DNA of 39,825 nt from IMG/VR virus record IMGVR_UViG_3300020165_000048, positions 1 to 39,825 of that record. The stretch is one strand, 5' to 3'. The stretch comes from a virus. Shown piece by piece: positions 441-39,307 of this stretch (position 1 is the first letter of the stretch; the number at the start of each line of letters is the position of its first letter). Under the pieces are notes generated by a model. That model saw only the letters and a list, made by a program, of their open reading frames with translations, made no database searches and had not been told where the DNA came from. The translations under genes and the position numbers were made by a program.

Positions 441-459
441 TTATTAGCCACGCTAATAT
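431..459 (+). promoter_or_regulatory. Promoter at head of the packaging/head block
   Basis: A -35-like TTGTGA (431-436) and a -10-like TAATAT (454-459) are separated by exactly 17 bp. The same geometry relative to the dyad (5 bp between -35 and dyad, -10 starting one base into its right arm) recurs at 7166-7194. Predicted transcription would begin near 466, almost on the ATG at 465, so the first gene may be read from a leaderless message, or the promoter assignment is slightly off. Confidence 0.5.
442..458. promoter_or_regulatory. 17-bp operator-like dyad, copy 1
   Basis: TATTAG-CCACG-CTAATA, a perfect 6-5-6 inverted repeat. It covers the spacer and -10 region of the promoter at 431-459 and ends 6 bp before the ATG at 465. 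The length and form match lambda-type repressor operators (17-bp dyads). Further copies are at 7177, 20474 (one mismatch), 21307 and 39292 (4-bp spacer). Confidence 0.6.
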
Positions 460-464
460 GTCGC

Positions 465-731
465 ATGCATGAGATAGAAGTAGTAGCAATCGATGGGTTA
501 GATGAGGCGATTGTAGGGTCCACGATCCGAAATGGTCGTGAGGTTCTCGCCTATAACTACGATAAAGCTATTTCGATAATAGTATCGCAAGGCAACTCTA
601 AGGAGTTTGCCGAACAGTGGATCGCAGAAGTGTCAGCGGATGAGTTCGAGGGCGCTCCTGCATTTGTGTATTTCGATAATGACCAAGAGTTTTATGGATC
701 TAGCACCCCAGCAGGAGTCATCGTCCACTGA
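465..731 (+). CDS. Conserved small phage protein, unknown function
   Basis: This 88-residue acidic protein has no signal peptide or membrane segment. The N-terminal part (DGLDEAIVGSTIRNGREVLAYNYDKAISIIV) resembles small proteins of the form DGF-EAIIG...YDYDKC that I associate with marine phage genomes, often near packaging genes; no function is known to me. It is the first gene after the dyad-bearing promoter and has no clear ribosome binding site, which fits a leaderless start. Its 3' end overlaps the probable start of the terminase small subunit gene by 38 bp. Confidence 0.6.
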   Translation: MHEIEVVAIDGLDEAIVGSTIRNGREVLAYNYDKAISIIVSQGNSKEFAEQWIAEVSADEFEGAPAFVYFDNDQEFYGSSTPAGVIVH

Positions 732-1209
732 CCTAGTCAGTGAGCACACGGAATTCCAGTCGCATATGCCGTACATGGGCATAAGCCGTGGATCGCTAAC
801 CATGCAGCAAGAAAAGCTGGTCTCGCTCATTAGCTCGGGTATGACAATCGCTGCCGCGGGACGTGGTGCGGGGTACTCTTCCCCGCAAGCAACCTACGCC
901 GCCGCAAAAGTCCCCGATGTACAGCAAGCAATCGAGTATTTCCGCCAGGAAATGCGTGAGGAAGTGAAGTTCACCAATCAGCACGCGCACATGATGTATA
1001 TGGAAGCGTACAACTCGTCGGCAAACGCCACTGAGATGAAGAACACCACCGATTCCCTGGTGAAGCTGCACGGTTTGGCTGCACCCGACAACGCCACCCA
1101 AGTAAATATCAACATTAACGGCACCAAGCAGCTAGAGCGGATGACCGACGAAGACCTGTTGAAGATTGCGGGTAAAGATCTCGACTACCTTGAACCTAAG
1201 AGTGATTAA
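694..1209 (+). CDS. Terminase small subunit-like protein (TerS)
   Basis: A 171-residue protein in the position expected of TerS, 92 bp before the large subunit gene. The central part has the TerS-like pattern: a helix with KLVSLISSGMTIAAAGRGAGYSSPQATYAAAK, which looks like a DNA-binding helix-turn-helix, followed by a helical oligomerisation region (VQQAIEYFRQEMREEV...NTTDSLVKLHGLAAP) and a C-terminal MTDEDLLKIAG. TerS recognises packaging DNA and regulates the large subunit. The frame opens at 607, but ATG 694, preceded by AAGAG, is preferred because it limits overlap with the gene ending at 731; ATG 766 is the alternative. The family assignment rests on pattern and position, not on a search. 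Confidence 0.62.
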   Translation: MDLAPQQESSSTDLVSEHTEFQSHMPYMGISRGSLTMQQEKLVSLISSGMTIAAAGRGAGYSSPQATYAAAKVPDVQQAIEYFRQEMREEVKFTNQHAHMMYMEAYNSSANATEMKNTTDSLVKLHGLAAPDNATQVNININGTKQLERMTDEDLLKIAGKDLDYLEPKSD

Positions 1210-1211
1210 TT

Positions 1212-1298
1212 ATGATGATGAAGCCAAAGAAAAAGGCGGCACCTAAGCGTAAGCCAGCTGCGAAACCTGCGAAGAAAAAGGTTTATAAGCCTTACTAA
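1212..1298 (+). CDS. 28-aa lysine-rich peptide with C-terminal Tyr
   Basis: A short frame between TerS and TerL, too short for usual gene callers. It starts at ATG 1212 (three ATGs in a row), 2 bp after the TerS stop, and ends 3 bp before the TerL ATG, so it fills the gap exactly. Eleven of the 28 residues are Lys and one is Arg; the peptide ends KKKVYKPY. A second peptide of this kind sits at 37336-37434 (ending KKNYGY). Such peptides could bind DNA or RNA, or act inside the capsid. No clear Shine-Dalgarno sequence is seen, so translational coupling to TerS is likely if it is expressed. Confidence 0.45.
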   Translation: MMMKPKKKAAPKRKPAAKPAKKKVYKPY

Positions 1299-1301
1299 AA
1301 T

Positions 1302-2945
1302 ATGACTGAAGTCACGAAGGTCGAATGCATACGCTGCAAAGCGTCGCATCCCGAGACGCTGTACTCGGGAGATGATCGACTCTGCGTGTATTGCAAAGCG
1401 GACATCGCGGAGCAAGAACCGCTACCCGCGACCCCCGAGCCCGTCGCTGCAGCTGAAGAAACACTAGAAGAAAAAGCGCGCGCGGAGCTCGCCTTACGGT
1501 TCCTGACTCGTAAAAGGCTGCTCCCCTTCGTGGAGCGGTTTAACCCAGATTACCAAGCGGGCTGGGTACACAAAGATATTTGTAAACGACTGGAGGAGTT
1601 CTCTAGAGATGTTACCGAAAAGAAGTCTCCCCGACTTATGCTCTTCATGCCTCCGCGGCATGGTAAAAGCACTCTTGCATCTGTGGCATTCCCAGCGTGG
1701 CACCTGGGCCGAAACCCTCAACACGAATTCATTAGCTGCTCTTACTCGGGCTCGCTCGCTATGGGCTTCAGCCGTAAAGTTCGCGGCTTACTACGCGAAG
1801 AAGGGTTTAAGTCGGCTTTCAAAACTCGCCTTGATCCGCAGTCTCAGTCAGCCGAGGCTTGGCTTACCACTGTGGGTGGCGGTTATGTTGCTGCTGGTGT
1901 GGGTGGCGGTATCACTGGTAAAGGGGCTCATATCCTTGTTATCGATGATCCTGTAAAGAACCGTGACGACGCTGAATCATCAAATGCTCGTGACTCAGCT
2001 TGGGACTGGTATACGTCGACTGCGTACACCCGTCTCGCTCCTGGTGGTGGCGTGCTCGTTATTCTCACCCGTTGGCATGACGATGATCTTGCGGGACGCT
2101 TACTTAAAGCAGCAGCGGACAACGGAGAACAGTGGGAAGTTGTTAACTACCCTGCACGAGCCGAAGTTGATGAAGAGTTCCGCAAGCAGGGAGAAGCCCT
2201 GCACCGCGAACGATATGACGAAGACGCGCTTGCGCGGATAGAGAAAGCGGTTGGCCCGCGAGACTGGTCAGCGCTGTACCAGCAGAACCCCGTTGCTGAT
2301 GATGGTGAGTACTTCACCAGGGAAATGATCAATTACTTCGATTACGAGGACATTGATGAGGACCGCATGAAGTTCTACTGCGCATGGGACTTGGCGATCG
2401 GTAAGAACGACAGGAACGACTACACCGTCGGCATCGTTGTAGGTGTTGACGAGTACGATCAGCTGTTCGTGATGGACATGGTCCGTGGCCGGTTTGATGG
2501 TTTCGAGTTGGTCGAACAGATCCTAGATATGTATGAGCTCTGGAAGCCGTCGATCATAGGTATAGAGAAAGGACACATCGAGATGGCCCTCGGGCCGTTC
2601 CTCGAGAAACGTGTTCGTGAGCGTGGGCTCTACGAAGCGTACTTCAAAGACCTCAAGACGGGGCGACGGGATAAAGAAGCCCGTGCAAGAGCGATCCAGG
2701 GTCGGATGCAGCAAGGCATGGTATTCATGCCAAGAGATGAAGAATTTACCGGCCCTCTGGTAGCAGAGTTATTGCGCTTCCCGAACGGGGTACATGACGA
2801 CCAGGTAGACGCCCTGGCTTGGATTGGTTTGATGATGACTGAGTTCAGCACCTTTGTTGAAAAAGTCGAATACATACCGAGCTGGCGCGACAAGTTGCCT
2901 GGATTACTGAAAGGCGAACGCACGAAATCACCTATGAGCGCATAA
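1302..2945 (+). CDS. terL: Terminase large subunit (TerL), ATPase and nuclease
   Basis: This 547-residue motor protein pumps DNA into the procapsid and cuts it. Seen in order: an unusual N-terminal zinc-ribbon-like segment with CxxC pairs at residues 9/12 and 28/31; Walker A PPRHGKST (117-124); Walker B ILVIDDP (211-217); a coupling-type LTRW (255-258); then an RNase H-like nuclease domain with acidic residues in AWDLAIG (D363), GIEKGH (E422) and NGVHDDQVDALAW (D499/D500, D503). The overall pattern is that of the Terminase_6/psiM2-type family. The first 60 residues, including the cysteine pairs and an acidic Pro/Ala/Glu linker, are extra to the usual ATPase start. No good ribosome binding site precedes ATG 1302, but all ATPase motifs need a start at or near here. 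Confidence 0.93.
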   Translation: MTEVTKVECIRCKASHPETLYSGDDRLCVYCKADIAEQEPLPATPEPVAAAEETLEEKARAELALRFLTRKRLLPFVERFNPDYQAGWVHKDICKRLEEFSRDVTEKKSPRLMLFMPPRHGKSTLASVAFPAWHLGRNPQHEFISCSYSGSLAMGFSRKVRGLLREEGFKSAFKTRLDPQSQSAEAWLTTVGGGYVAAGVGGGITGKGAHILVIDDPVKNRDDAESSNARDSAWDWYTSTAYTRLAPGGGVLVILTRWHDDDLAGRLLKAAADNGEQWEVVNYPARAEVDEEFRKQGEALHRERYDEDALARIEKAVGPRDWSALYQQNPVADDGEYFTREMINYFDYEDIDEDRMKFYCAWDLAIGKNDRNDYTVGIVVGVDEYDQLFVMDMVRGRFDGFELVEQILDMYELWKPSIIGIEKGHIEMALGPFLEKRVRERGLYEAYFKDLKTGRRDKEARARAIQGRMQQGMVFMPRDEEFTGPLVAELLRFPNGVHDDQVDALAWIGLMMTEFSTFVEKVEYIPSWRDKLPGLLKGERTKSPMSA

Positions 2946-2946
2946 C

Positions 2947-5061
2947 ATGTTAAAGACTAAGAAGATGGACCCTGCAAAGGAAGAGGAAATTACACGGACC
3001 CAGTGGGCTCGATATGAGCGCGCTCGGGACAACGGCCACCTAGACTACGTAGACATGGCACTCAAATGTGACGAGTACTACCAGGGTGATCAGTGGGATG
3101 AAGACGACGCAGCAGCACTCGAGAACGAAGGTCGCCCTGCTCTAACGATCAACACCATTCTTCCTACTATTAACACCATTCTAGGTGAGCAGTCATCGCG
3201 TCGCGCGGACGTTAAGTTCAAACCACGAAGAGGTGGTGATGAAGAGGTAGCGCACACGCTGACTAAGTTGTACATGCAGATATCCGACAGCAATAAGCTG
3301 GACTGGGTTGAGCAGCAGGTGTTCTCTGACGGTTTGATTATGGATGGTCGCGGATATTTTGACGTTCGCATGGACTTCAGCGATCACGTTGAAGGTGAGA
3401 TCCGAATCACGGCCAAAGACCCGTTAGACATACTCATCGACCCCGATGCAAAAGACGCAGACCCTAAGACTTGGAACGAGGTGTTTGAGTCTAAGTGGAT
3501 GACCCTCGATGAGATCGAGGAGCTGTACGGCGCAGACAAGGCGGAGCGCCTGTTGTTTGTTGCCGAGAATGGCATGAGTTTTGGTCCTGACTCTGTGGAG
3601 TATCAGGAGACTCGATTCGGTGATACGGACGACAACGACGACTACTTCGGAGCCGGTGTTCCTGGTGATGAGGAGTACCGCAACGTTAAGTCTTTGCGCG
3701 TCGTTGAGCGGCAGCACAAGAAGCTGGTCCGCGCATCGTTCTTCGTAGACAAGAACACGGGTGATCAGAGAGAGTGCCCCTCCCAGTGGAGCGAAGCGAA
3801 GTGTAAGAAGTTCGCGAAGAAGTACGACATGGAGATGGTATCAAGAGTCGTGCGCCGCGTTCGTTGGACCGTGACCTGTGATCAGGTTGTGTTGCACGAT
3901 AACTGGTCCCCATATAACGACTTTACCGTTATCCCCTTCTTCTGTTACTTCCGAAGAGGTAGACCTTTCGGCGTGGTGCGTAACCTACTGTCTCCGCAGG
4001 AGCAGCTGAACAAGATCGCGAGCCAGGAACTCCACATCGTAAACACTACCGCGAACAGCGGCTGGATGGTTGAGAGTGGATCGTTGGTTGGCATGACAGC
4101 TGACGACCTCGAGGAGCACGGTGCAGAGACAGGTCTCGTCCTTGAGTACGCTCGAGGTACGCAAGCCCCGACAAAAATCCAACCAAACCAGATACCAACA
4201 GGTCTAGATCGAATCGCTCAGAAAGCAGCGTTAAACATTAAGACTATTTCTGGTATCAACGACTCAATGATGGGTACGGACAGCGCGGAAGTATCCGGCG
4301 TTGCCATCCAGGCTAAGCAGAACCGTGGCGCGGTTATGATCCAGGTGCCACTGGACAACCTGGCTAAGAGTCGACAGTACCTAGCAGAGAAGGTTCTTAA
4401 CCTGATTCAAACCTTCTACACCGAGCAGCGCGTTATCCAGGTGACTAACGACGAAGATCCGATGCAGCCACGCGAGCCTATGGTCTTAAACATGGAGACT
4501 CCCGAGGGCGACATCATCAACAATCTGACGCTTGGTGAATACGACGTGATTGTTGCGTCTGCACCTGCCAGAGACAGCTTCGATGAGACGCAGTTCGCTG
4601 AAGCACTCAGTCTCAGACAAGCCGGTGTTGCTATCCCAGATGATGCGATTGTTGGGTACAGCCATCTCCTCAAGAAGGAAGAGTTGGCCAAGCGCATTCG
4701 CATAATGACTGGTCAAGAGCCTCCATCTCCAGAGAAGGCGCAGGTCATGCAGCAACAGCAGATGCTGGCGATGCAGAACTTGCAGCTTGAGACCATGAAG
4801 CTCCAAGCAGAAGTCGAGAAGCTCCAGTCAGAAACCTCGGTCAACGTTGCGAAGATACAAGAAGTGGCTGAAGTTAGCCCGCAAGTACGAATGGCTGAGC
4901 TGCAGGCGAAGATTCAGATGAATCAGGAGCAGTTACAGCTGCGGCGTGAGCTTTCAGCGGCAACAAACGACATCCGAGTAGGACAAAGTGAAACATCCGC
5001 TGCGACGAAGATAGCTACGACAGCTATGCAGCAATCTAGAACTCAAAACAACCAGCAATAG
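2947..5061 (+). CDS. Portal protein, P22-like
   Basis: This 704-residue protein forms the ring at the unique capsid vertex through which DNA enters and leaves. The segment GRPALTINTILPTINTILGE (residues 62-81), followed by QSSRRADVKFKPR, is typical of the P22-like portal family. The length matches (P22 gp1 is about 725). The C-terminal 100 residues are rich in Gln, Met and Glu in long heptad-like helices (QQQQMLAMQNLQLETMKLQ), corresponding to the barrel that projects into the capsid in this family. It starts 1 bp after the TerL stop, so translation is probably coupled. Position between TerL and scaffold supports the call. Confidence 0.9.
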   Translation: MLKTKKMDPAKEEEITRTQWARYERARDNGHLDYVDMALKCDEYYQGDQWDEDDAAALENEGRPALTINTILPTINTILGEQSSRRADVKFKPRRGGDEEVAHTLTKLYMQISDSNKLDWVEQQVFSDGLIMDGRGYFDVRMDFSDHVEGEIRITAKDPLDILIDPDAKDADPKTWNEVFESKWMTLDEIEELYGADKAERLLFVAENGMSFGPDSVEYQETRFGDTDDNDDYFGAGVPGDEEYRNVKSLRVVERQHKKLVRASFFVDKNTGDQRECPSQWSEAKCKKFAKKYDMEMVSRVVRRVRWTVTCDQVVLHDNWSPYNDFTVIPFFCYFRRGRPFGVVRNLLSPQEQLNKIASQELHIVNTTANSGWMVESGSLVGMTADDLEEHGAETGLVLEYARGTQAPTKIQPNQIPTGLDRIAQKAALNIKTISGINDSMMGTDSAEVSGVAIQAKQNRGAVMIQVPLDNLAKSRQYLAEKVLNLIQTFYTEQRVIQVTNDEDPMQPREPMVLNMETPEGDIINNLTLGEYDVIVASAPARDSFDETQFAEALSLRQAGVAIPDDAIVGYSHLLKKEELAKRIRIMTGQEPPSPEKAQVMQQQQMLAMQNLQLETMKLQAEVEKLQSETSVNVAKIQEVAEVSPQVRMAELQAKIQMNQEQLQLRRELSAATNDIRVGQSETSAATKIATTAMQQSRTQNNQQ

Positions 5062-5070
5062 GACATTGAT

Positions 5071-6093: not shown

Positions 6094-6104
6094 CGAGGTG
6101 ACAA

Positions 6105-6395
6105 ATGCCAGTCAAAAAAGACCCACGGTTAGCCCGAGCAGGAGTGTCGGGCTTTAACAAACCTAAAAGGACGCCCTCGCACCCTAAAAAGTCACACATT
6201 GTGGTGGCTAAAGAAGGTGACAAGATTAAAACCATCCGATTTGGCGAGCAAGGCGCGTCTACTGCAGGTAAACCCAAGGCTGGTGAAGGCGACAAGATGC
6301 GTAAGAAGCGTGCGAGCTTCAAAGCACGGCATGCAAAGAACATATCCAAGGGCAAAATGAGCGCGGCCTATTGGGCAAATCGCGTTAAGTGGTGA
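6105..6395 (+). CDS. Small basic phage protein (RAGVSGFNKPKRTP type)
   Basis: A strongly basic 96-residue protein. Seen: RLARAGVSGFNKPKRTPSHPKKSHIVVAKEGDKIKTIRFGEQG, then KASFKARHAKNI-type sequence and the end KGKMSAAYWANRVKW. I recognise this pattern from many tailed phages of marine and soil bacteria as a conserved protein of unknown function; it is not an enzyme I can name. GAGGTG before ATG 6105 is a strong ribosome binding site. The protein pairs with the next gene, also very basic. Between scaffold and capsid genes, both may be packaged or DNA-associated, but that is inference. Confidence 0.75.
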   Translation: MPVKKDPRLARAGVSGFNKPKRTPSHPKKSHIVVAKEGDKIKTIRFGEQGASTAGKPKAGEGDKMRKKRASFKARHAKNISKGKMSAAYWANRVKW

Positions 6396-6399
6396 TCTG

Positions 6400-6795: not shown

Positions 6796-6800
6796 CCTAA

Positions 6801-7157: not shown

Positions 7158-7165
7158 GATAGTAG

Positions 7166-7194
7166 TTGCATTGTTATATTAGCTATACTAATAT
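7166..7194 (+). promoter_or_regulatory. Promoter for the capsid block
   Basis: TTGCAT (7166-7171) and TAATAT (7189-7194) are separated by 17 bp. The layout is identical to the promoter at 431-459, with the same offset to the overlapping dyad. Transcription would start near 7201 and give a leader of about 210 nt before the capsid ATG. Confidence 0.6.
7177..7193. promoter_or_regulatory. 17-bp operator-like dyad, copy 2
   Basis: TATTAG-CTATA-CTAATA, perfect 6-5-6 inverted repeat, extended by one more matching A/T pair on each side. It covers the spacer and -10 of the capsid promoter. A protein bound here would block RNA polymerase, as lambda-type repressors do. Confidence 0.68.
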
Positions 7195-7410
7195 TCTACA
7201 TACGTCCATCACAACGATATGTGTTCGGCCCGTAGCCGTAAAAAACGTATTCGCCTACACAAGGCGTTAAACCTGTCGAGGTCGCACCTCGTTAATAAGC
7301 GCTAGTTCGTTATCCCACGATACGGGAATACGGATTAGCCGCTCCTTTAAGTCGGCTGATGAGGCGGCGTGTGCCGCATAAATTATATTGTCTACTTAAT
7401 GGAGGCCATC
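7195..7410 (+). promoter_or_regulatory. Hairpin-rich 5' leader of the capsid gene
   Basis: A non-coding leader with successive perfect short hairpins: CGCCT/AGGCG (7252-7256 with 7262-7266), CGAGGT/ACCTCG (7277-7282 with 7286-7291, CGC loop), AGCCG/CGGCT (7337-7341 with 7353-7357) and GCGGC-GTGT-GCCGC (7364-7377). TCCC/GGGA near 7314-7327 may add one more. After the last hairpin comes an A/T-rich stretch and then a strong GGAGG (7401-7405), 5 bp before ATG 7411. The arrangement would stabilise the message and keep the ribosome site open, or bind a regulator. I do not recognise a known RNA family. Confidence 0.5.
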
Positions 7411-8556: not shown

Positions 8557-8564
8557 GACAAGCG

Positions 8565-8587: not shown

Positions 8588-8610
8588 ACTTATAGAAGAA
8601 GGTACATGAC

Positions 8611-9186
8611 ATGGCACTCCCCCTATTAGGCGTTGCAGCAATGATTGGCCGAGCAGGCATAGCGGCTGCAGCCAAAAGATTCGGTAAAAAAGCTGTACAA
8701 GAAGCCGTGAAAAAAGGCGCGAAGCCAAAGCCAAGAGGTGCTACTCGAGTAAAGCCCCAGGCTAAAACAACCGCCCCTAAGAAGCCTGCTACAACAGCGT
8801 CAGGCAAACCGCGCGGCGCGACTAGAAATCCCCCTAAGCCTAGGAAAAAGCCCGTAGCAGGCGCACGCGGTGCGACTCGTACAGGTCAGGCTCCAAAGAG
8901 CCGCCGTGCTAACACGGCACCTAAGCCAGGAATGAGCAGAACAGGCAAAGTTATGGCTGGTGCAACAGTCGCATCTATGATCCCTGCGGGTTCGAGCGTC
9001 ATTAAAGGCGGCGCTAAGACACCTAAGCGATCTAAGTTCGGCGTAGGTTCTGCCAAGACCATTACTTACAAGGGTCGAGAGATGGCGAACGTAGATGCCT
9101 CGCAGTTAAAAGCGACAGGCATGTCTCTGCGATCGTATATGAACGCTTGGAACAAGACCGGCAAGCGACCAACCAAGAAGAAATAA
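8611..9186 (+). CDS. Basic low-complexity protein with RGATR repeats
   Basis: A 191-residue protein rich in Lys, Arg, Ala, Pro and Thr. Residues 1-22 are hydrophobic (ALPLLGVAAMIGRAGIAAAA). RGATR occurs three times (42-46, 68-72, 86-90) in KP-rich surroundings, and the three DNA copies use different codons, so the motif is held at the protein level. A second hydrophobic patch (113-132) precedes a more ordered C-terminal region (ITYKGREMANVDASQLKATGMSLRSYMNAWNKTGK). GAAGAAGG before ATG 8611 is a good ribosome site. Its place after the capsid gene and its charge suggest an internal head or DNA-contacting protein; not identified. Confidence 0.65.
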   Translation: MALPLLGVAAMIGRAGIAAAAKRFGKKAVQEAVKKGAKPKPRGATRVKPQAKTTAPKKPATTASGKPRGATRNPPKPRKKPVAGARGATRTGQAPKSRRANTAPKPGMSRTGKVMAGATVASMIPAGSSVIKGGAKTPKRSKFGVGSAKTITYKGREMANVDASQLKATGMSLRSYMNAWNKTGKRPTKKK

Positions 9187-9201
9187 CCAGGACTATTAAT
9201 C

Positions 9202-9579
9202 ATGAAGATTGTTAGTGGCGAAGATTTACGAGTGGCGACCCTTAGCGGGGCCGTCGTTTTGTTTGAAGCAGGAGTTCCTCGAGAAATCGCTGATGAGATT
9301 GGCTTAATCGCCATTCAAATGGGTGCCAAGGAATACAACGACAAATACGTCGAAGAGGTCAACGCTGAAGTAGCGGTGTTTGAAGAAGTTGTTGAAGTGA
9401 CCACAACTGAAACCAACCCTACTTTGGTTACCGTCCTCGAAAAGATGATGGATGAAGGCGATCCAAAAAACTTTAAAGCAGATGGTTACCCTAAAGCTGC
9501 AGCTGTTAATCGAGCAATGGGTAAGACAATTGACACTGATGCCCGAGAAGCCGCTTGGGAATCCATTCTTAACTCATAG
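9202..9579 (+). CDS. Conserved phage head-region protein
   Basis: A 125-residue protein. The N-terminal half has a compact pattern (KIVSGEDLRVATLSGAVVLFEAGVPREIADEIGLIAIQMGA) that recurs in short phage head-region proteins. The C-terminal half contains FKADGYPKAAAVNRAMGKTIDTDAREAAWE, resembling the FKADGxPKVxxLNxxLG element found in many small phage head proteins of the Mu gp36/HI1506 type. An acidic Val/Glu/Thr linker joins the halves. It sits directly before two adaptor genes, so a role at the head-tail connection is plausible. The function is not established. Confidence 0.6.
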   Translation: MKIVSGEDLRVATLSGAVVLFEAGVPREIADEIGLIAIQMGAKEYNDKYVEEVNAEVAVFEEVVEVTTTETNPTLVTVLEKMMDEGDPKNFKADGYPKAAAVNRAMGKTIDTDAREAAWESILNS

Positions 9580-9589
9580 GTAAAATATC

Positions 9590-17400: not shown

Positions 17401-20287
17401 AGAGTTTGCAGGCGAGCGAAATGTCGGATTTAACGAGCGCAACGAAGATCCCGTTGATCAAGGCCCAGTAGCAGATAGAGGCGAAGAACAAACTAGACCA
17501 ATTGGTTTTTCGGAGGATACAGAATCCGCTAACCCTGATTACACGTTTGAGCCTGACCAGGAGAACGTTGGCGACCTAGCGCAAATTGGGCTTAAAGAAG
17601 GAACGATTGGCAAGCGCGTTGCAGACATAGCGCGGCGAACTCTGCGGTTAAACAACCCTGTATCAGTTATATCTATTAAAGAATTGCTGGCCCAGGATAC
17701 CTCTGCTTATTTTGACAACGAAAATGTCGCTTCCTATGTGAAGCAGATTGCCGAAGACCTTCGCGACAACCCACAAGGCGGCGGGCGGTATATAGGTTTC
17801 GGCGATGCACACATCATCCTAGTCGACCCCGACGCAGGTAAGAATGAGCTTGATACCGCTATAGTGGTCGCACATGAACTAGGGCATGCCCTGTTTAAAG
17901 AGCAGCTATCCTCTACCCTGCAGAATCCCTCTCTGTACAACCGACTCTTTGATGCATATCAAATAGCACGCGGCGCCGATGATGCACCTGCTGCTTACAA
18001 GGGTAAAAGAGGTTTTGAAGAATGGTATGCAGACCAGACGGCCAATTGGGCCATAGGTGAATACACCAAGAACAGAAAGAAAGGTCTTATAGGCGCGCAC
18101 TTCCAAAAAGTAGCACGGGCACTCAAGTCTTTTTACAACGCATTCTCGAAAGAAATGAAGCAGCGCTTCGGTCAAGACACTTACTCTCCAGAGTTCCGTG
18201 GGTACATGGACGAGGTGATGAAAACGCGTAAGGCAGGCGATGTCCGTTCTGGGGCGCGCAATGCCACGATGGAACAGAAGGTGATAGTGAGAAAGATGGC
18301 GGAAGTCATCGAGAAGCAAAGCCCAGGGCTTTCTAACGCCATCACTAGAAAAGTACAGGAGATAATTCGTAGCGACGGGTTTACTCCTATCTACAACTTC
18401 GTTGTCACAGCAGACACTCGACTCCGAAAGATCGGCGGTAACAAGCTAGCAGATCTGTTCTACGGGCGGTCTCAGCAAGCTAAAGGACAAGGACGCAACA
18501 AGCTAGGCTTCCTCAAGACAGCCATGCTCGAAGGTAATGCACGCTTCAGTCAGCTTGAAGATATGGTGGATGGCAAGCTGGACTCACCAGAAGTCCAGGA
18601 GTCAATCCGCATAGCGTTTACCAGCACTCCTACGCGCGATCTTACCGACGCTAATGCGATAGCTGTACGCCAGTGGTTTGATAAGTTCTATGACGAGTAC
18701 ATTGAGCCATCTAACACAGACGTAGGTCGCCAACGTGACTACGCTCCTGTTGTCCTCAAGCTATCTGCAATCGACCAAGATCCTGCTGGCCTGGTTGCGC
18801 TGCTTATGGAAGCAGACCCCGAGGCTAAAGAGTCTGACATTAGGAGCGCTGTACAACGGTTGGTCAACTACCAACAGGTTGTAATGGATGAGGGGCCAAT
18901 CTCTATCGAAGAGACTAACCCTGCTCAGTCAGCAGAAAAGGCTATCCAGCTTACGAAGAAGGTAGATAGAGAGAAGCTGCAAGAAGCTGGTTTCCTTGAA
19001 GACCCTGATATTGCGCTAATGCGTTATATCAGCAACATGGTCAAGCGCGTTGAATGGAACCGAAACACTAAAGACGATTTCGGCAACAGTATCTATGAGG
19101 AAGAGCTGCGTAAGCTTGATCCAAAAGCTCGGGCAGAAGCAGAAAAGATCGTCCACAAGTACTTGGGATACCAGGACGCCCCGCTAGGACCAATGTGGCG
19201 AGCGATTAACAGCTGGGGCTCGATCTTACAAATTTTTGCAATCTTGCCTCTCGCTGTATTGGGCTCGATACCAGAACTAGCTGGGCCTGTAATTGCGAGT
19301 AAAGAGTTTGGCTCTGTTACCACGGGTATGAAAGAGATTGTAAACACTATCCGTAATCGTGATGAGGCTCGAGTGCTTGCTCGCGACTTAGGTGTCGTTA
19401 CTAGTCAGTCAGTCGCCAACGTCATGATGTCACAGGCAGAACTAGACTACATGAGCACTAATGCGCGTAAGGTTGCCGATGGGTTCTTCCGATTTACCCT
19501 CCTCGATACCTACACTAAATTTACCCGAGAGTTTGCGTCGAACATGGGCGTTAGGTTCCTAGAGAACCACAGTAACTCAGAGACAGCTGGCCCGTTTTCA
19601 AAGCGATACCTACAAGAACTAGGTGTTACTGCTGAAGAAGTACAGGTCTGGTCAAAAAGTAACCAGGACTTCAGTACACCCGAGGGCAAAAAGGTACGTA
19701 TGGCTCTGCAGCGGTTTGTAGAGTCATCGACACTGCGGCCAAACTCTGCGGAGCGGCCTCTTTGGGCATCTGACCCACGCTGGGCACTTGTTTGGCAGTT
19801 AAAAGGATTTGTTTTCTCTTACGGCAAAGTCATGCTCGCAGGCGCGAAGCGCGAATCACTAGCCAGGTTGGAAGGAGCATCTGCAAAAGATGTTAATACC
19901 TACGCTGCTATGACTGGCGCGGCTGGCGTGTTTGCCCTAATGGGTATAGCGACTATGCCACTGGCGATGGTGGGTATGGAGCTGCGTGAGTACGCTAAGT
20001 TTGGTTTAGCCTGGGCAATTCCTGGTATTGATCACGAAGCTAAGAATTACTTTAGAACCGACGATATGAGCTGGGGCACCTACATGGGCGCTGCCTTTGA
20101 CAGAGGGTTTGCTATGGGCCCGTTCACTATCGCGCGCCAGGCTATGCAAGCCGCCGATTGGGGCCGTGGTGTCACTGGCGCGGCGGCTGTTGTTCTTGGC
20201 CCCACTGCCGAGACTGTAGACAGAATATTTTCTGACGGATTCCCGAGCACATTTGAAAACCGCATACTACCTACAGGATTACTCTGA
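14462..20287 (+). CDS. Giant ejection protein with HExxH metalloprotease motif
   Basis: This 1,941-residue protein, read from GTG 14462 two bases after the previous stop, holds the place of the largest internal virion protein (T7 gp16). Residues 80-345 contain Gly/Ala-rich membrane-like segments (TPYLGTTITGGLGGAAVTGLA, FAGFFGGAGISGAG). A zinc-protease motif HELGH is at 1138-1142 (in AIVVAHELGHALF), with a probable third ligand and helix at E1186/E1187 (FEEWYADQTANWA), as in ImmA/IrrE-like peptidases. The C-terminal third has further hydrophobic helices (FAILPLAVLGSIPELAGPVI, GAAGVFALMGIATMPLAMVG). It resembles the large polyvalent proteins of phages, which are delivered with the DNA. Membrane insertion plus proteolysis of cell-wall or host protein is inferred. 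No transglycosylase motif was seen. Confidence 0.72.
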   Translation: MSESIEDLFSRYRGKTGYETIQDESMQPETPKGVGETFDRGFGAGVEGIRTDTDYFKGLFNTVIGDEEAAAKNIADARQREERAAGQFGELETFGEFVDNPTFGGFVSQVAKNVGQVTPYLGTTITGGLGGAAVTGLAKVGLTTGGKQVTKRLVKDAFEKKLKGEAMPEEERVLAVAYRLAQRNNPGKKLSLRGGALAGMFGQEYGSMAGSNFGENLDYLDQDEAALRAAGLAIPQALIGIGGEALLTRMLMKDLGAIAAKRSTKDGSAFSEFAKTLGKNTVRGGATEGLAEVGQEGFGVANRFSMDDEYTQQDAALRIGESAFAGFFGGAGISGAGSVATGSLRGAGNIMGKAKDFIEQARQQQVDNQIDAEQYGTDSMGYTTPEPRSSVNAQLRAALDTSTNRHSVWVEGPTPEYDASPDSTKKVDIQGETFYTRFIPGRGTIITKNFDIAEEVAKSEASESSLAEALQYSSVKPNDSDIAIEALDRGGNVVWQQATNEEGVPGAMTAAGKQVPEGGSIRRVSIKEALENRKKLFENEQGPQVRNIDQESFAEMGAPVELNIGRQETYKPRDPEQLFDTTREARDEFAAEFAELDQEELGKGQFDGLSFGANSPFATMSDAFMRAAVQAKRDAGDNSVFFKLNDDKSWSLMQTKSPEADLYGLDTRSDLEIDPEIDAEIDREAEAAGVATERLDNRSSSPITFIKSAISKAKESRYARQKKVKGQWVDKTKEEIVTVDGAAVNLTDLVKEGQRLFSIEQKTNFTEGGPQTAQRNGLFQAIGSLIEQGYEIRIGGYDIRSKDLKDISELSSLIAREEADIAKAALEFDIDPNDPNLSGRLAEYERALSQIDETAAQTNSPLDRLKRERKAWTKKYIEYQKAKDRGDTSVEFPEKTPLLALMDVEAGTASGGNVTLGKLLNITPAEPAPRDATYQLTNEDGFVVFEGNKQQVQERIESDGQPYRITKNGEVLGVDEDGVEEFAGERNVGFNERNEDPVDQGPVADRGEEQTRPIGFSEDTESANPDYTFEPDQENVGDLAQIGLKEGTIGKRVADIARRTLRLNNPVSVISIKELLAQDTSAYFDNENVASYVKQIAEDLRDNPQGGGRYIGFGDAHIILVDPDAGKNELDTAIVVAHELGHALFKEQLSSTLQNPSLYNRLFDAYQIARGADDAPAAYKGKRGFEEWYADQTANWAIGEYTKNRKKGLIGAHFQKVARALKSFYNAFSKEMKQRFGQDTYSPEFRGYMDEVMKTRKAGDVRSGARNATMEQKVIVRKMAEVIEKQSPGLSNAITRKVQEIIRSDGFTPIYNFVVTADTRLRKIGGNKLADLFYGRSQQAKGQGRNKLGFLKTAMLEGNARFSQLEDMVDGKLDSPEVQESIRIAFTSTPTRDLTDANAIAVRQWFDKFYDEYIEPSNTDVGRQRDYAPVVLKLSAIDQDPAGLVALLMEADPEAKESDIRSAVQRLVNYQQVVMDEGPISIEETNPAQSAEKAIQLTKKVDREKLQEAGFLEDPDIALMRYISNMVKRVEWNRNTKDDFGNSIYEEELRKLDPKARAEAEKIVHKYLGYQDAPLGPMWRAINSWGSILQIFAILPLAVLGSIPELAGPVIASKEFGSVTTGMKEIVNTIRNRDEARVLARDLGVVTSQSVANVMMSQAELDYMSTNARKVADGFFRFTLLDTYTKFTREFASNMGVRFLENHSNSETAGPFSKRYLQELGVTAEEVQVWSKSNQDFSTPEGKKVRMALQRFVESSTLRPNSAERPLWASDPRWALVWQLKGFVFSYGKVMLAGAKRESLARLEGASAKDVNTYAAMTGAAGVFALMGIATMPLAMVGMELREYAKFGLAWAIPGIDHEAKNYFRTDDMSWGTYMGAAFDRGFAMGPFTIARQAMQAADWGRGVTGAAAVVLGPTAETVDRIFSDGFPSTFENRILPTGLL

Positions 20288-20664
20288 TGAGCATCTTTAC
20301 CGCGCTACTTGGACCTGTTGCAGATTTAGGCAAGACGTATCTCAGCAACAGGGCTGAAGAAAAACAGGCTAAGCACCAAGCCAAAATGAACGTCATCCAG
20401 AACGATGCTGATTGGGAAGCCAAGATGGTTGATGCATCTGCGTCCTCGTGGAAAGACGAGTTCTGGACTATAATATTAGCTATACCAATATTCATGGTTG
20501 GCTATGCAATTATTGCTAATGACATGACAGTGGTAGAGCGCGTACAGCAGGCATTTTCAACGCTGAACGACCTGCCCGAGTGGTATCAATACCTTCTTTT
20601 TATCGCGATCTCGAGTTCATTTGGAATTAAGGGCGCATCGAAACTTATGGGGATGCGCAAATGA
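20287..20664 (+). CDS. Holin, 3TM (gene-transfer-release type)
   Basis: A 125-residue protein overlapping the preceding stop by one base (TGATG). After an amphipathic N-terminal region with basic and acidic residues come SSWKDEFWTIILAIPIFMVGYAIIA (first membrane helix), NDLPEWYQYLLFIAISSSFGIKGA (second) and a basic end. The WKDE-W...IP and P-WYQY...SFG elements match the Holin_3TMs family of phages and gene transfer agents. Holins make pores in the inner membrane that time lysis. The codons for ILAIPIF contain a near-copy of the 17-bp dyad (20474-20490). Confidence 0.8.
   Translation: MSIFTALLGPVADLGKTYLSNRAEEKQAKHQAKMNVIQNDADWEAKMVDASASSWKDEFWTIILAIPIFMVGYAIIANDMTVVERVQQAFSTLNDLPEWYQYLLFIAISSSFGIKGASKLMGMRK
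20474..20490. promoter_or_regulatory. Operator-like dyad, intragenic copy (one mismatch)
   Basis: TATTAG-CTATA-CCAATA. Over 21 bp it differs from copy 2 (7177-7193 plus flanks) at one position, including the same 5-bp spacer, although it lies within holin codons. There is no -35 match at the position used by copies 1 and 2. It may be a binding site inside the gene, or coincidence. Confidence 0.35.
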
Positions 20665-21298: not shown

Positions 21299-21327
21299 TG
21301 GAACATTATTAGTCGTACTAATATAAT
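21299..21327 (+). promoter_or_regulatory. Promoter for the tail block
   Basis: A perfect -10 TATAAT (21322-21327) lies 17 bp after TGGAAC (21299-21304), a weak -35. An alternative -10, TAATAT (21319-21324), keeps the offset seen at the other two dyads but has no good -35. AGATGAGCTC upstream of ATG 21351 provides a modest ribosome site. Confidence 0.55.
21307..21323. promoter_or_regulatory. 17-bp operator-like dyad, copy 3
   Basis: TATTAG-TCGTA-CTAATA, perfect 6-5-6 inverted repeat in the 56-bp gap between endolysin and tail genes. The arms are identical to copies 1 and 2 while the spacer differs, as expected when a protein reads only the arms. Confidence 0.65.
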
Positions 21328-35449: not shown

Positions 35450-36123
35450 TGACTACCTATACAGAAAATTTATCTCTTGTATCGGCAGCATTACCCTACG
35501 GTGGTACAGCGACTGCTACTAGAAATTTGACGGTTGGCGACACCATAACAGCGAGCTTTGATCAGGAAGCTACTAGCACACAACAGACCAATTACTTGGA
35601 TAACGAAGACAATGACATCGTCTTTACCCTGGTCAACTGCACAATCTCCCCGACAAGTGTTAAAAACCGCGGCACGTTTACGATTACTCCAACGAACACG
35701 AATTCGAATTACTCGTGTAATGGGGTGCTCGTATATTACCTCCCTGGCGGGCATCAGTATGGTGGCCCTTCAACGGACCACCAGCAGGCTGAGTTTACGA
35801 TTAGTGGCACCTTCAGCGGCAGTTCCGGCACACCGGATATGGGCCTGCAGGTGTGGCACCCGAGCAACACGTCCCTGCCGCGTTTAGACACCAAAGACAA
35901 GCAGATCATGCACTACGCGTCGTACTCCGGCACCGTAACATCAGGTACAAACACTACTATTTCTGTTGGGGGTGGCTACGACATTACTAATGGGGATTGG
36001 GGGATTGATGTGACACCCGTTGACTACGATTTAAGTGTCGTATCGACCTCAAATCAGTTTGTTGTTAGCAGTGCTGAGGGTTCGATCCAGTGGCGCGTTA
36101 ACGTATTTAAGTTGAATCAATAA
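35449..36123 (+). CDS. Tail accessory protein, unknown function
   Basis: A 224-residue, Thr/Ser/Asn-rich, beta-type protein that starts within the fibre stop (TAATG). No cysteine-rich, membrane or enzyme motif is seen. The composition (TVGDTITASF, FTLVNCTISPTSVKNRGTFTITPTNTNSN, AEFTISGTFSGSSGTPDMG) resembles phage fibre tips or decoration proteins with immunoglobulin-like strands. It overlaps the next gene by one base, so fibre, this gene and the next are translationally coupled. It may bind the fibre end or be a secondary receptor-binding part. Confidence 0.58.
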   Translation: MTTYTENLSLVSAALPYGGTATATRNLTVGDTITASFDQEATSTQQTNYLDNEDNDIVFTLVNCTISPTSVKNRGTFTITPTNTNSNYSCNGVLVYYLPGGHQYGGPSTDHQQAEFTISGTFSGSSGTPDMGLQVWHPSNTSLPRLDTKDKQIMHYASYSGTVTSGTNTTISVGGGYDITNGDWGIDVTPVDYDLSVVSTSNQFVVSSAEGSIQWRVNVFKLNQ

Positions 36124-36881
36124 TGACATACGGTATTCGAGTAGAAAACGAGTCGGGCTTTACACAAATCGACGACACTACACAGGGGTTCCAGGTGCTC
36201 GCTACTGGGACTGTATCGGCTAGTAACGCGTACACCATTAATTATGTGACGATTCCGAGCACTTATCCAGATGACATCCTTGTTGTGGCTAAACCTAACA
36301 ACCCTAATACCAACATAGACTACCGGTTGTACGCTAAGTACAGCGATACAACTAATAACAACGGGGTTCGTACTCGTCGTTGCTTTATGAACTTCGCAGC
36401 CGGAGGGAGCGTCGTTGCTACGGAAGCCGCAGATTACGCCATTATCCAACGCTGCAGTGAGTTTGATGACAGTCTTATTAGCGGTCAGACGCCGCCTAAC
36501 CAGGGCTTAAATATTTACCAATCCGACGGCACTTTAAGTTTTACGTCAGAGAAACCTACTTACCGCGTCCAAGCAGCACGGCATCATGAAGTCACGTCGT
36601 CTAGTTCTGGGGCAGGCACTTGGTACACAGGCGTCGACAGTACAGACATTGAAGATATTTACGGTTTGGCTATGGGCTATGGGGCATATAAGTATCGAGT
36701 GTTTGGCCCAGCGGCGGATCGCCAGTACACAAGCACCTCTCGACTACTACGATGGGATTACCAAAATTCACGAATAGAAACAGTCACGAGGAGTGTTGGT
36801 GGCCAAGCGGGTTATACCAGCGGGACATATACAAGGGTTTGGGAAGGGCATAGAACAGAGATGGTGGGATATATCGTATGA
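36123..36881 (+). CDS. Tail tip-associated protein (DUF6453-like)
   Basis: This 252-residue protein begins MTYGIRVENESGFTQIDDTTQGFQVLATGTV, a form that I associate with a group of phage tail proteins resembling DUF6453, usually encoded just after a gpJ-like or fibre gene. The rest is beta-rich (YRVQAARHHEVTSSSSGAGTWYTG, YKYRVFGPAADRQYTSTS). It overlaps genes on both sides by 1 and 4 bp. A structural role at the distal tail is likely; direct evidence is only pattern and order. Confidence 0.6.
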   Translation: MTYGIRVENESGFTQIDDTTQGFQVLATGTVSASNAYTINYVTIPSTYPDDILVVAKPNNPNTNIDYRLYAKYSDTTNNNGVRTRRCFMNFAAGGSVVATEAADYAIIQRCSEFDDSLISGQTPPNQGLNIYQSDGTLSFTSEKPTYRVQAARHHEVTSSSSGAGTWYTGVDSTDIEDIYGLAMGYGAYKYRVFGPAADRQYTSTSRLLRWDYQNSRIETVTRSVGGQAGYTSGTYTRVWEGHRTEMVGYIV

Positions 36882-37321
36882 ACAAATTTGCACTGGTCGC
36901 AGAAAACGGAGAGGTGGTTTCAATTGTTCACCCGTCGTACGACGGTATGTGGACCGAGGGTCAGCAGGTTGGAACAGAAACCGCGCGTAGTTTCCCGTAT
37001 GAGATTCCAGACACAACGGTCATAATCGAATGGTACTGGCGGCATGCATGGGTAAAAAATAAACCCATACGGCCTGGTGACTATTACTACTGGGATAACT
37101 ACCAGTGGAATCTGAACACAACTGAGCTTCAGGCCGAGATGCGTTCATTGCGTGATTACAAGTTAGCTAAATCCGACTGGACACAGTTTAACGACAGTCC
37201 GTTGTCTGATTCTGACAAAGCCGCTTGGGTGACTTACAGGCAGGCATTACGAGATGTCCCAGCAAACAATCAAGATATAGATTCACTAGACGATGTGTCC
37301 TGGCCAACACCGCCAGGTTAA
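36878..37321 (+). CDS. Tail assembly chaperone-like protein (Phage_tail_APC)
   Basis: A 147-residue protein. The C-terminal 60 residues (LRDYKLAKSDWTQFNDSPLSDSDKAAWVTYRQALRDVP, then DDVSWPTPP) match the Phage_tail_APC pattern found at the end of phage fibre operons. The N-terminal half has aromatic-rich strands (NKFALVAENGEVVSIVHPSYDGMW, WYWRHAWVKNKPIRPGDYYYWDNYQW). In related phages such proteins help fold or attach fibres. It overlaps the previous gene by 4 bp, consistent with coupling to the fibre genes. Confidence 0.72.
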   Translation: MNKFALVAENGEVVSIVHPSYDGMWTEGQQVGTETARSFPYEIPDTTVIIEWYWRHAWVKNKPIRPGDYYYWDNYQWNLNTTELQAEMRSLRDYKLAKSDWTQFNDSPLSDSDKAAWVTYRQALRDVPANNQDIDSLDDVSWPTPPG

Positions 37322-37335
37322 ACAGGAGATAAGAT

Positions 37336-37434
37336 ATGCACGCAGGTAAAGGTAAGCAATGTATTTTGAACCAACAAGACAAGCCAAAGAAAAAGAAGGC
37401 TAAGAAGAAGGCGAAAAAGAACTATGGCTACTAA
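37336..37434 (+). CDS. 32-aa lysine-rich peptide with C-terminal NYGY
   Basis: A short frame preceded by AGGAG (37323-37327), a good ribosome site 8 bp before ATG 37336. It overlaps the start of the next gene by 11 bp in another frame. The second half is almost pure Lys with a few Ala and Pro (KPKKKKAKKKAKK) and ends NYGY. It matches the style of the 28-aa peptide at 1212-1298: Lys-rich helix followed by two tyrosines separated by one or two residues. Function unknown; nucleic-acid or capsid binding is a guess. Confidence 0.55.
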   Translation: MHAGKGKQCILNQQDKPKKKKAKKKAKKNYGY

Positions 37435-37657
37435 ACGCGACTATAAAGAAGAGTATAAGTATCACCAGACTGATGCTCAAAAGAAACGACGCGCTGCCCG
37501 TAACAAAGCGCGGCGTGATGCCTTGGCGAAAGGTAAGGTCAAGAAAGGAGACAAAAAAGACGTACACCATAAGGATGGAAATCCTAAGAACAACAGCAGT
37601 AAAAATGTTGCTGTGGTGAGCCGTAAGAAGAACCGTGGTGCGTACCGATTTGCATAA
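37424..37657 (+). CDS. Small HNH-type protein
   Basis: A 77-residue basic protein. The first 45 residues are Arg/Lys-rich (YKEEYKYHQTDAQKKRRAARNKARRDALAKG). The rest is a compact HNH core, DVHHKDGNPKNNSSKNVAVVSRKKNRG, with His-His, Asp and Asn in the expected spacing. Short proteins of this form are common in phages of marine bacteria. With no added zinc ribbon it may nick DNA or only bind it. It ends the + strand late region; 4 bp later a 26-bp palindrome begins. Confidence 0.75.
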   Translation: MATKRDYKEEYKYHQTDAQKKRRAARNKARRDALAKGKVKKGDKKDVHHKDGNPKNNSSKNVAVVSRKKNRGAYRFA

Positions 37658-37661
37658 CCTC

Positions 37662-37687
37662 CATGAATTTAATGCATTAGATTCATG
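37662..37687. repeat. 26-bp near-perfect palindrome
   Basis: Twelve of 13 base pairs match around the centre at 37674/37675; the two halves are CATGAATTTAATG and CATTAGATTCATG, and the one unmatched pair (T69/G80) would be a wobble pair in RNA. It is AT-rich and not followed by a T run, so it is not a typical terminator. Its right end overlaps the likely -35 of the promoter at 37678-37706. It looks like a binding site for a dimeric protein. Confidence 0.7.
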
Positions 37688-37706
37688 ACCTGACCCCCCG
37701 TATAAT
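37678..37706 (+). promoter_or_regulatory. Promoter before the 21-aa frame and attP region
   Basis: A perfect -10 TATAAT (37701-37706) lies 17 bp after TAGATT (37678-37683), which keeps T1, G3 and A4 of the -35 consensus. Transcription would start near 37713. The palindrome at 37662-37687 overlaps the -35, so it may act as operator. Confidence 0.5.
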
Positions 37707-37734
37707 TGCGCCTCTTTCATATAGGGGGCACACC

Positions 37735-37800
37735 ATGTTGTACGTAATAGCGTTCGTTCTTTTAGCACTAGGGGCGATAGCCAAACAGGACTTACTGTAG
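37735..37800 (+). CDS. 21-aa hydrophobic peptide
   Basis: A short frame with a G-rich ribosome site (GGGGG, 5-6 bp before ATG) and a consensus -10 upstream. Residues 2-16 are hydrophobic (LYVIAFVLLALGAIA), followed by a short polar end (KQDLL), enough for a single membrane helix. It could be a small lysis or exclusion peptide, or a leader read before the integrase gene. Expression is not proven; the good upstream signals are the reason for listing it. Confidence 0.4.
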   Translation: MLYVIAFVLLALGAIAKQDLL

Positions 37801-37817
37801 GGTGTCAGTGACACCCT
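37799..37817. repeat. 8-bp hairpin after the 21-aa frame
   Basis: AGGGTGTC-AGT-GACACCC-T is a perfect 8-bp inverted repeat that begins in the stop codon of the 21-aa frame. There is no T run after it on either strand. It could weaken transcription into the integrase gene or serve as a protein site at the edge of attP. Confidence 0.5.
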
Positions 37818-37824
37818 CAAGATA

Positions 37825-37981
37825 TAAGTAAATTGAATTAAGTAGTAGAAACAAGCACTTAGGAATTTTAGCCCCTGTAGGGTAAGTAATAGTAAGTAGT
37901 ACTTAACCTATTGAAATAGAACGGAAAGTTGCAATCCGGCGCACAGAATCCCTCTCTCTCCGCCAGTTTTGTAAGTGCTTG
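37825..37981. other. attP: attP region with integrase arm-type repeats
   Basis: TAAGTA occurs directly at 37825, 37839, 37883 and 37893 and inverted at 37900-37905. A perfect 10-bp inverted pair, CAAGCACTTA (37852-37861) and TAAGTGCTTG (37972-37981), brackets the tRNA-like core. Short repeated sites flanking the crossover are typical arm-type binding sites of lambda-like integrases. The integrase gene follows at 38037. Confidence 0.65.
37946..37965 (+). other. attP core: copy of a tRNA-Ser 3' end
   Basis: GAATCCCTCTCTCTCCGCCA divides as the end of a T-loop (GAAT), T-stem 3' strand (CCCTC), acceptor 3' strand (TCTCTCC), discriminator G73 and CCA. G73 is characteristic of tRNA-Ser. The preceding bases do not form the rest of a tRNA, so this is not a tRNA gene. 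The phage therefore most likely integrates into the 3' end of a host tRNA-Ser gene and restores it. The exact tRNA-Ser isoacceptor cannot be told. Confidence 0.82.
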
Positions 37982-38036
37982 ATGTGCATGGATTTTTCAG
38001 TAAGATAATGTCCTTCGACACTCATAGGACACCCTG

Positions 38037-39032
38037 ATGCACGTAAGGAAGCGCGGCAACGGTTGGCAAGCAATCGTTAAATTTAAAGGTAACCCCACTC
38101 AACAGAAGACTTTCAATTCCCAGGCAGCAGCTAAAGCATGGGGGCGTCGCATTGAGTCGAGCATGGACAACGGGTCGTGGATCGATACTCGTGAATCGCG
38201 GTCCGTGCTCATCGAGCACATAGTCGATGACCTGGTCTACTCGTATGAGAGGTTTGGGCTCGAGGTCGCTGGTCCTAAATTAGGACAGTTGAATCAGATA
38301 AAAGAATACTTCCACGGTGTATCGATACACGAGCTGACTTTTGATGATGTGTTGGACTTTGCTGCATTTCGTTTAGAGACCATTGCTGCAAGCACACTAC
38401 AGACTCAAATGTATTATCTGAAGCAAGCCGTCACAAACAGCAGAATAAAAACCGAGCAGCCTGTAGTAGATATGGCGATCGATGAGCTCAAGAAAAAGAA
38501 GTTGATCATGGGAAGCGTCAGAAGAGACAGGCGGTTGGAACCAGGCGAGTACGAAACTTTGATGGAAGCAGCAGAAGGACACTGGATTAGTGCTGCAATA
38601 GACATAGCTGTGGAATCTGGCATGAGACAAGGTGAGATTCATGCGTTGAAGTGGTCAGACATAGATGAAAACAAAGGCGTCATCCACTTAATGCGTAAAG
38701 ATAAGGGCGCTGAAGGAGGTAAATCTAAGTGCGATATACCTCTACTTCAAGGCGTGAGAGAGGCGTTGCTACGCTCGTCAAACGTACTTGGGCAAGGGCC
38801 AAACCTTATTAGCGTAAAGCGGGCAGCATCGATTTCAGACAAGTTTGCCAGGATGACGGCGAAATTAGGAATAGACGACTTGAGGTTCCACGACTTACGT
38901 CATGAAGCAATTAGTCGAATGTTTGAGCGTGGAATGAGGGTTGAACAAGTGCGGGTTGTATCTGGACACCGCACCTTAGATCAACTTTCTAGGTACGTGA
39001 ACCTTCGCGCTGAAGATCTAGCTGGGATGTGA
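38037..39032 (+). CDS. int: Tyrosine-family integrase
   Basis: This 331-residue recombinase inserts the phage genome at the tRNA-Ser site. Seen: N-terminal arm-binding part (VRKRGNGWQAIVKFKGNPTQQKTF), a core-binding helical domain (about 55-150), and a catalytic domain with R197 (ESGMRQGEI), a lysine near 221-223 in the beta-hairpin, H285 and R288 (FHDLRHEA), H311 (SGHRTL) and the nucleophile Y320 (LSRYVNL). All expected residues are present and the length is normal. AGGA lies 7 bp before ATG 38037. A weak promoter may exist inside attP (TTGATG 37979, GATAAT 38004, 19-bp spacing). The 3' end overlaps the oppositely oriented excisionase-like gene by 44 bp. Confidence 0.94.
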   Translation: MHVRKRGNGWQAIVKFKGNPTQQKTFNSQAAAKAWGRRIESSMDNGSWIDTRESRSVLIEHIVDDLVYSYERFGLEVAGPKLGQLNQIKEYFHGVSIHELTFDDVLDFAAFRLETIAASTLQTQMYYLKQAVTNSRIKTEQPVVDMAIDELKKKKLIMGSVRRDRRLEPGEYETLMEAAEGHWISAAIDIAVESGMRQGEIHALKWSDIDENKGVIHLMRKDKGAEGGKSKCDIPLLQGVREALLRSSNVLGQGPNLISVKRAASISDKFARMTAKLGIDDLRFHDLRHEAISRMFERGMRVEQVRVVSGHRTLDQLSRYVNLRAEDLAGM

Positions 39033-39210
39033 AGTAGGTAGCTACTTCAGGTGTAGGGAAGAGATATTTTTTCCCGTGTTTTACGTGCGGTATGTTTAGA
39101 CCGTCGCGATATATCTGCTGATACAGTGATTCTCTTTTGATCTTTAATAGATCAGCGAGATCGGCTAGGTCCATGAATGGACCGTATTGATTGATTAAAA
39201 CCTCTAACAT
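38989..39210 (-). CDS. Excisionase-like / HTH_17 DNA-binding protein
   Basis: A 73-residue protein. MDLADLADLLKIKRESLYQQIYRDGLNIPHVKHGKKYLFPTPEVATYF is a winged-helix/MerR-type (HTH_17) fold as in Xis, AlpA and torI proteins, which bend attachment-site DNA and steer integrase to excision. AGGGAG lies upstream of the ATG at 39210. The reading direction is opposite to the integrase, and its last 44 bp overlap the integrase 3' end. The probable promoter (39278-39305) contains a variant of the 17-bp dyad. A transcriptional regulator (Cro-like) is the alternative role. Confidence 0.68.
   Translation of the reverse strand: MLEVLINQYGPFMDLADLADLLKIKRESLYQQIYRDGLNIPHVKHGKKYLFPTPEVATYFTSQLDLQREGSRT
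39030..39049. repeat. Hairpin at the integrase stop codon
   Basis: TGAAGTAGGTAGCTACTTCA is an 8-bp perfect stem with a GTAG loop that starts in the integrase stop codon. It lies inside the oppositely oriented excisionase-like gene. It may end the integrase message, but there is no T run after it. Confidence 0.45.
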
Positions 39211-39277
39211 CTTTCTCCCTCTGTAACTTTCCTTGTCTAAAGATCAATGCAACAGGGTAGTTACAAAGTGCTAATAT

Positions 39278-39305
39278 ATTATAACAAAAATTATTAGTAT
39301 GCTAA
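39278..39305 (-). promoter_or_regulatory. Promoter of the excisionase-like gene
   Basis: On the - strand, a perfect -10 TATAAT (39283-39278) is 16 bp after TTAGCA (39305-39300), four of six matches to the -35 consensus. Transcription would start near 39271, 60 bp before the ATG at 39210. The -35 lies within the dyad at 39292-39307. Confidence 0.55.
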
Positions 39306-39307
39306 TA
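39292..39307. promoter_or_regulatory. Operator-like dyad, variant with 4-bp spacer
   Basis: TATTAG-TATG-CTAATA has the same arms as the dyads at 442, 7177 and 21307 but a spacer one base shorter; the arms extend by one more T/A pair to 39291-39308. It overlaps the -35 of the promoter reading toward 39210 and starts downstream of the repressor-like gene. A further half-site CTAATA is at 39271-39276. Confidence 0.5.

Follow-up and report, generated by a model that had tools for sequence, protein, structure and literature searches.

The operators of phage lambda lie only at PL and PR, and short operators dispersed over the genome are known from phiC31, with its conserved inverted repeats, and from P1, with the operators of C1. 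In E. coli K-12 the repressor RacR binds to its intergenic region both in vitro and in vivo (PMC5700373), and DicA binds TTGTTAGTCATAACTAACAA (TTGTTAG-N6-CTAACAA), designated Oc, a site that overlaps the -10 element of dicC and at which a single base change abolishes binding (PMC3441716); the operators of these two proteins cluster in one region, racR-ydaS or dicA-dicC. In the Cluster A phages such as L5 one repressor has many dispersed sites, the stoperators, which are 13 bp long and asymmetric and stop elongation; these sites vary from clade to clade, the C-terminal half of the repressor is variable, and repressors with an identical helix-turn-helix (HTH) have different stoperator motifs (PMC6550527). 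MrpR, the master repressor of SPbeta, has a tyrosine-recombinase fold and is bound at ten promoter-region sites (SPBRE, a 15-bp motif) across the prophage (PMC10516654). Here we analyse a 17-bp dyad, TATTAG-N5-CTAATA, in 39,825 nt of DNA from a virus that infects marine bacteria (IMG/VR record IMGVR_UViG_3300020165_000048, positions 1-39,825; hereafter the window). We propose, with a probability of about 0.86, that the dyad is the binding site of the phage's own CI/RacR-type repressor, the product of the HTH gene at 39320-39823, which would silence early and late promoters alike through dispersed operators. Literature searches returned no description of this operator set.

The three perfect copies that the initial annotation had pointed out are all present, TATTAG-CCACG-CTAATA at 442-458, TATTAG-CTATA-CTAATA at 7177-7193 and TATTAG-TCGTA-CTAATA at 21307-21323, with no match in 100 dinucleotide-preserving shuffles, and the form with a 4-bp spacer, TATTAG-TATG-CTAATA, is indeed found at 39292-39307. 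The gene families downstream agree with its view that the perfect copies mark the starts of the packaging/head, capsid/ejection and tail blocks: terminase (phrog_38) and portal follow 442, the major head protein (phrog_334) follows 7177, and an internal virion protein (phrog_511) and a giant protein of 4121 residues follow 21307. All four dyads, each a predicted operator, overlap likely promoters. At 442 TTGTGA (431-436) is separated by 17 bp from TAATAT (454-459), at 7177 TTGCAT (7166-7171) by 17 bp from TAATAT (7189-7194), and at 21307 TGGAAC (21299-21304) by 17 bp from TATAAT (21322-21327), the right arm of the dyad running into the -10 element. The fourth promoter, on the minus strand, has TTAGCA (39305-39300) and TATAAT (39283-39278) 16 bp apart, the dyad covering the -35 element and spacer; it precedes an AlpA/excisionase-like gene (38989-39210, minus strand; Pfam HTH_17, with an excisionase-like PHROG match for its homolog), which the 39292 site is proposed to control. 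Such an overlap of a promoter with a palindrome carrying the family half-site TTAG...CTAA is a feature of RacR/DicA/CI-type operators, and a protein of that type is the presumed binder here.

The same arrangement recurs in relatives. The 442 site is present in G005, G006, G008, G010 and G012, and the gap between the HTH and AlpA genes is likewise occupied in G001-G006, G008 and others. The register of the capsid-block site is kept in 39 distinct relatives, in whose promoters TTGCAT scarcely varies (TTG in 97-100%) and stands 17 bp before TAATAT, and that of the tail-block site in 26, in which TATAAT or TATACT begins at dyad position +15. The dyad is thus centred at about -16 in capsid promoters and at about -19 in tail promoters. 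Most promoters other than that in the HTH-AlpA gap have a single site; in that gap G003, G005, G006 and G002 have two operators 14-17 bp apart.

A scan with the capsid protein yielded 80 uncultured viral loci, in most of which the dyad lies some 200-230 nt ahead of the capsid gene. Fifteen contigs, the window included, encode the HTH protein (743 kb in total). They contain 92 copies of the core ATTAG-N5-CTAAT, where 29 dyads matched to it in arm composition average 0.55. Enrichment in gaps, which the initial annotation had put forward as a check, is pronounced: gaps account for 11.2% of the length of these contigs but contain 79 of the 92 copies (p about 4e-61). De novo searches rank the motif first among dyads in 7 relatives, and across relatives the arms are constant while the spacer varies in the form Y-NNN-R, in line with the earlier remark on constant arms and differing spacers. 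Contigs of the relatives carry up to 14 sites (at most one mismatch), early regions included, and the sites precede genes for primase-helicase, PD-(D/E)XK nuclease, SNF2 helicase, AlpA, terminase, capsid and tail proteins. With 7-15 gap sites in each HTH-encoding contig longer than 40 kb, early and late, the set has the many-sited character of dispersed-operator systems, again with a predicted binder. The sites do fall at late blocks and at the lysogeny switch, as had been noted, but early replication units, outside the window, also carry them, so that the set is genome-wide and not late-specific.

The dyad and the HTH gene go together, and they do so with a tyrosine integrase (38037-39032, plus strand, in the window). 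The HTH gene was found in 8 of the first 13 contigs and adjoins the integrase in 8 of 8; all 15 contigs that encode it have either the site itself or a variant specific to their clade. Four relatives of at least 39 kb in which neither HTH protein nor integrase is matched (G007, G019, G021 and G023) hold one core match in 181 kb, within coding sequence. G007, which is syntenic with the temperate relatives, is without HTH, AlpA and integrase genes, and keeps TTGCAT-17-TAGTAT ahead of the same capsid leader and a TATAAT upstream of the tail gene, both without dyads. As these promoters persist, the dyad is dispensable for the promoter, which fits an operator superimposed on it, and G007 is a natural deletion case.

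The initial annotation had singled out the protein encoded at 39320-39823 (minus strand) for a test of binding. It matches Pfam HTH_3, and we regard it as an XRE/CI-type candidate repressor; the open reading frame (ORF), however, is not complete, its 5' end being cut by the right end of the window, and the early region therefore lies outside. The ATG at 39811 is an internal methionine: in a 99%-identical relative (L115) the protein starts MSKDLPLSVRNLRKIWDAKKVQMRFTQ and has about 24 further N-terminal residues, and its gene follows one for a VRR-NUC-like protein. In the near clade, full-length homologs are about 180-203 residues long and carry a lambda-CI-like domain at the N terminus, and the HTH aligns with lambda CI (PDB profile matches, E 4e-6; fold Z 10.8 to 3kz3), so that the N-terminal DNA-binding domain is of the XRE/CI type seen in RacR, DicA and CI repressors. 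The recognition helix, W[ST]QGA[ILF][SA][HQ]YL, hardly varies among 15 homologs, in contrast to the divergent C-terminal half; this half is modelled as beta-rich, full-length lambda repressors align only weakly beyond the HTH, and Pfam gives no Peptidase_S24 match in the protein. In lambda CI, Gln33 and Gln44 contact base pair 2 of the operator. They align with invariant residues, Q29 and Q40 of the G003 protein, and position 2 is A in most sites; we infer that these two glutamines may make a lambda-like contact with that position. Inside the gene upstream of the HTH gene stand two or three CTAATA half-sites about 25-27 bp apart (around 10220-10310 in L084 (G003), and equivalents), conserved in G003, G004, G006, G008 and G001; they are perhaps an autoregulated promoter of the repressor, coding constraint being an alternative.

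How does this locus compare with the described systems? The closest homolog in the phage collection is a RacR-like 'DicA' of Rac-SA53, 43% identical over the HTH, whose own intergenic control region contains TATTAGCCTCACTAATT. That region thus presents TATTAG-N5-CTAATT, and the half-sites TTAG...CTAA are common to the RacR/DicA group and to our phages; no similarity is seen outside the HTH domain, and instead of clustering in one region the sites are dispersed, early and late. With lambda the phage shares the DNA-binding fold of CI and 17-bp dyads that begin with TAT and end with ATA, but here each block has its own operator, and a divergent cI/cro region with clustered operators was not found. 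With L5 it shares one presumed repressor, many dispersed sites, clade-specific variants and a variable C-terminal half, yet the sites are not 13-bp asymmetric elements in one predominant orientation but 17-bp dyads, symmetric in most clades, inside sigma-70 promoters. The sites of MrpR are likewise dispersed, whereas the candidate repressor here has a CI-type HTH. Dispersed-operator silencing is thus a known strategy, and a lambda/RacR-type dyad inside promoters would be an unusual form of it.

We infer binding, dimerisation, repression and a role in lysogeny. A repressor dimer would sit across the core promoter of each unit, between the -35 and -10 elements or over the -35 element, and would block the host sigma-70 RNA polymerase. 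Since the site recurs at early replication units, at the excisionase gene and at the terminase, capsid and tail units, a single repressor could silence the whole lytic programme directly rather than by relay through early genes only, and upon its removal all units could fire from ordinary sigma-70 promoters. The suggestion that one regulator silences the late blocks directly in the lysogen is in this way strongly supported by gap enrichment, by the conserved promoters and by the co-occurrence of the motif with the HTH protein and the integrase.

In some relatives all sites of a genome change together. G001 has TAATAG-N5-CTATTA at its sites, G013-G018 have A/C/GATTAG forms, and G002 (L104-L106), a complete 57-kb genome by its 55-bp terminal repeat, has TAATAC-N5-CTAATA, a strictly asymmetric form shared by G009. 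Such concerted change within a genome is as expected for one trans-acting protein. The asymmetric form was ruled out as a directional promoter element, for it runs with the genes at some places and against them at others, and it is accordingly read as two different half-sites.

Several observations weigh against the proposed repressor. The helix sequence tracks the operator variants only partly: the end of the helix is changed in G001 (TGET for NNIT), but G002 combines its asymmetric operator with the common recognition helix, so that specificity is not fully readable from the helix, a difficulty also met with the Cluster A repressors. The 4-bp spacer at 39292 calls for some flexibility in the binder. 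The HTH gene stands last in the early operon, in which it overlaps the VRR-NUC-like gene that precedes it, and is not divergent from a cro gene. Finally, contigs of the relatives are mostly incomplete, and shared descent inflates the co-occurrence.

Could the dyad instead bind a phage activator that turns on late (and early) promoters, as the initial annotation also considered? Late activators such as P2 Ogr and Mu C use dyads, and the tail promoters have weak -35 elements. Activators, however, need a fixed and usually upstream phasing, and the site lies between the -35 and -10 elements of capsid and tail promoters and over the -35 element of the AlpA promoter; as its offset varies by promoter, steric repression fits better than activation. 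Capsid promoters, moreover, have strong TTG -35 elements, and relatives without the dyad keep their promoters, all of which makes an activator very unlikely. That the sites are mainly transcription roadblocks, stoperators of the L5 type rather than promoter operators, would suit their many copies in short intergenic gaps of early and late operons. Against this, a -35/-10 register is conserved around the site, most clades have a symmetric site, unlike the stoperators, which are asymmetric and mostly share one orientation (PMC6550527), and even the asymmetric form of G002 faces both ways relative to genes; we hold roadblocks to be quite improbable.

The main binder could instead be a different phage regulator, such as AlpA, a second XRE protein or a Cro that escaped notice, since Cro-type proteins usually share operators with CI and the second XRE protein (G004 2853-3248) has repressor-family matches. 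But the AlpA fold differs (HTH_17), and the second XRE protein, found in only 5 contigs and absent from the complete G002, where no called site lies in coding sequence, was ruled out as the general binder; the chance that another regulator is the main binder is slender, and any of the three may bind the sites in addition. The matches of this second XRE protein (L087 (G004) 2853-3248) are weak and to RstR/CI, and in G010 a one-mismatch dyad stands 25 bp before its gene. That a host regulator or an RNA polymerase of the phage recognises the dyad, to which the strong conservation of the motif at promoters might point, is scarcely credible given that half-sites change genome-wide between phage clades, that no single-subunit RNA polymerase is seen and that HTH-less relatives are without the dyad. 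An early protein of 833-836 residues matches DUF5906/VapE-like helicase families, which rules out a phage RNA polymerase promoter.

If the phage's own CI/RacR-type repressor is indeed the binder, late structural genes of a large group of marine temperate phages would be held off directly by the immunity repressor, block by block. Immunity would then rest on more than a block of early genes, and any superinfecting relative that has the same operator would be shut down at all its units. A broader proposal, to which we give somewhat less than even odds, is that a widespread marine podovirus-like lineage has no DNA-level switch of an early/late cascade, one CI/RacR-type repressor having its operator at all sigma-70 promoters of both classes, with sets of about ten operators that shift in concert between clades and in one clade are strictly asymmetric (TAATAC-N5-CTAATA). 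The aligned genomes with their concerted operator changes form a natural series in which the evolution of immunity specificity becomes testable, and the relative that has neither HTH gene nor integrase, with promoters but no operators, does the same for loss of lysogeny. The motif could also be used as an easy sequence marker of immunity groups in uncultured phages.

As to hosts, the capsid protein of the window has no match among host prophages; that of G014 matches two contigs of gammaproteobacterial metagenome-assembled genomes with the motif (L245 and L249) and, at 56% identity, a contig of Pasteurella testudinis (L248) without it. The HTH profile found no match in the three assemblies, in a search that had no positive control.

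A one-mismatch copy, TATTAG-CTATA-CCAATA, lies at 20474-20490 within a holin-like ORF (20287-20664), upstream of the lysis genes. Its codons, ATA ATA TTA GCN ATA CCA ATA, are kept in near relatives, where ATA makes up only about 20-30% of isoleucine codons, and the dyad is lost in more distant relatives; it may serve as an internal operator ahead of the lysis genes. The leader that links the capsid promoter to its gene (7194-7398, plus strand) is a conserved structured RNA with 35 pairs, 98.6% of cells being paired in 18 sequences. Eleven pairs have changes on both sides, a number reached by 0-1 of 500 shuffles, and the leader is kept in the dyad-less G007; Rfam gives no match in the window, this RNA included. 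In relatives a CsrA-like protein is encoded directly after DNA polymerase A (L087 (G004) 9027-9215).

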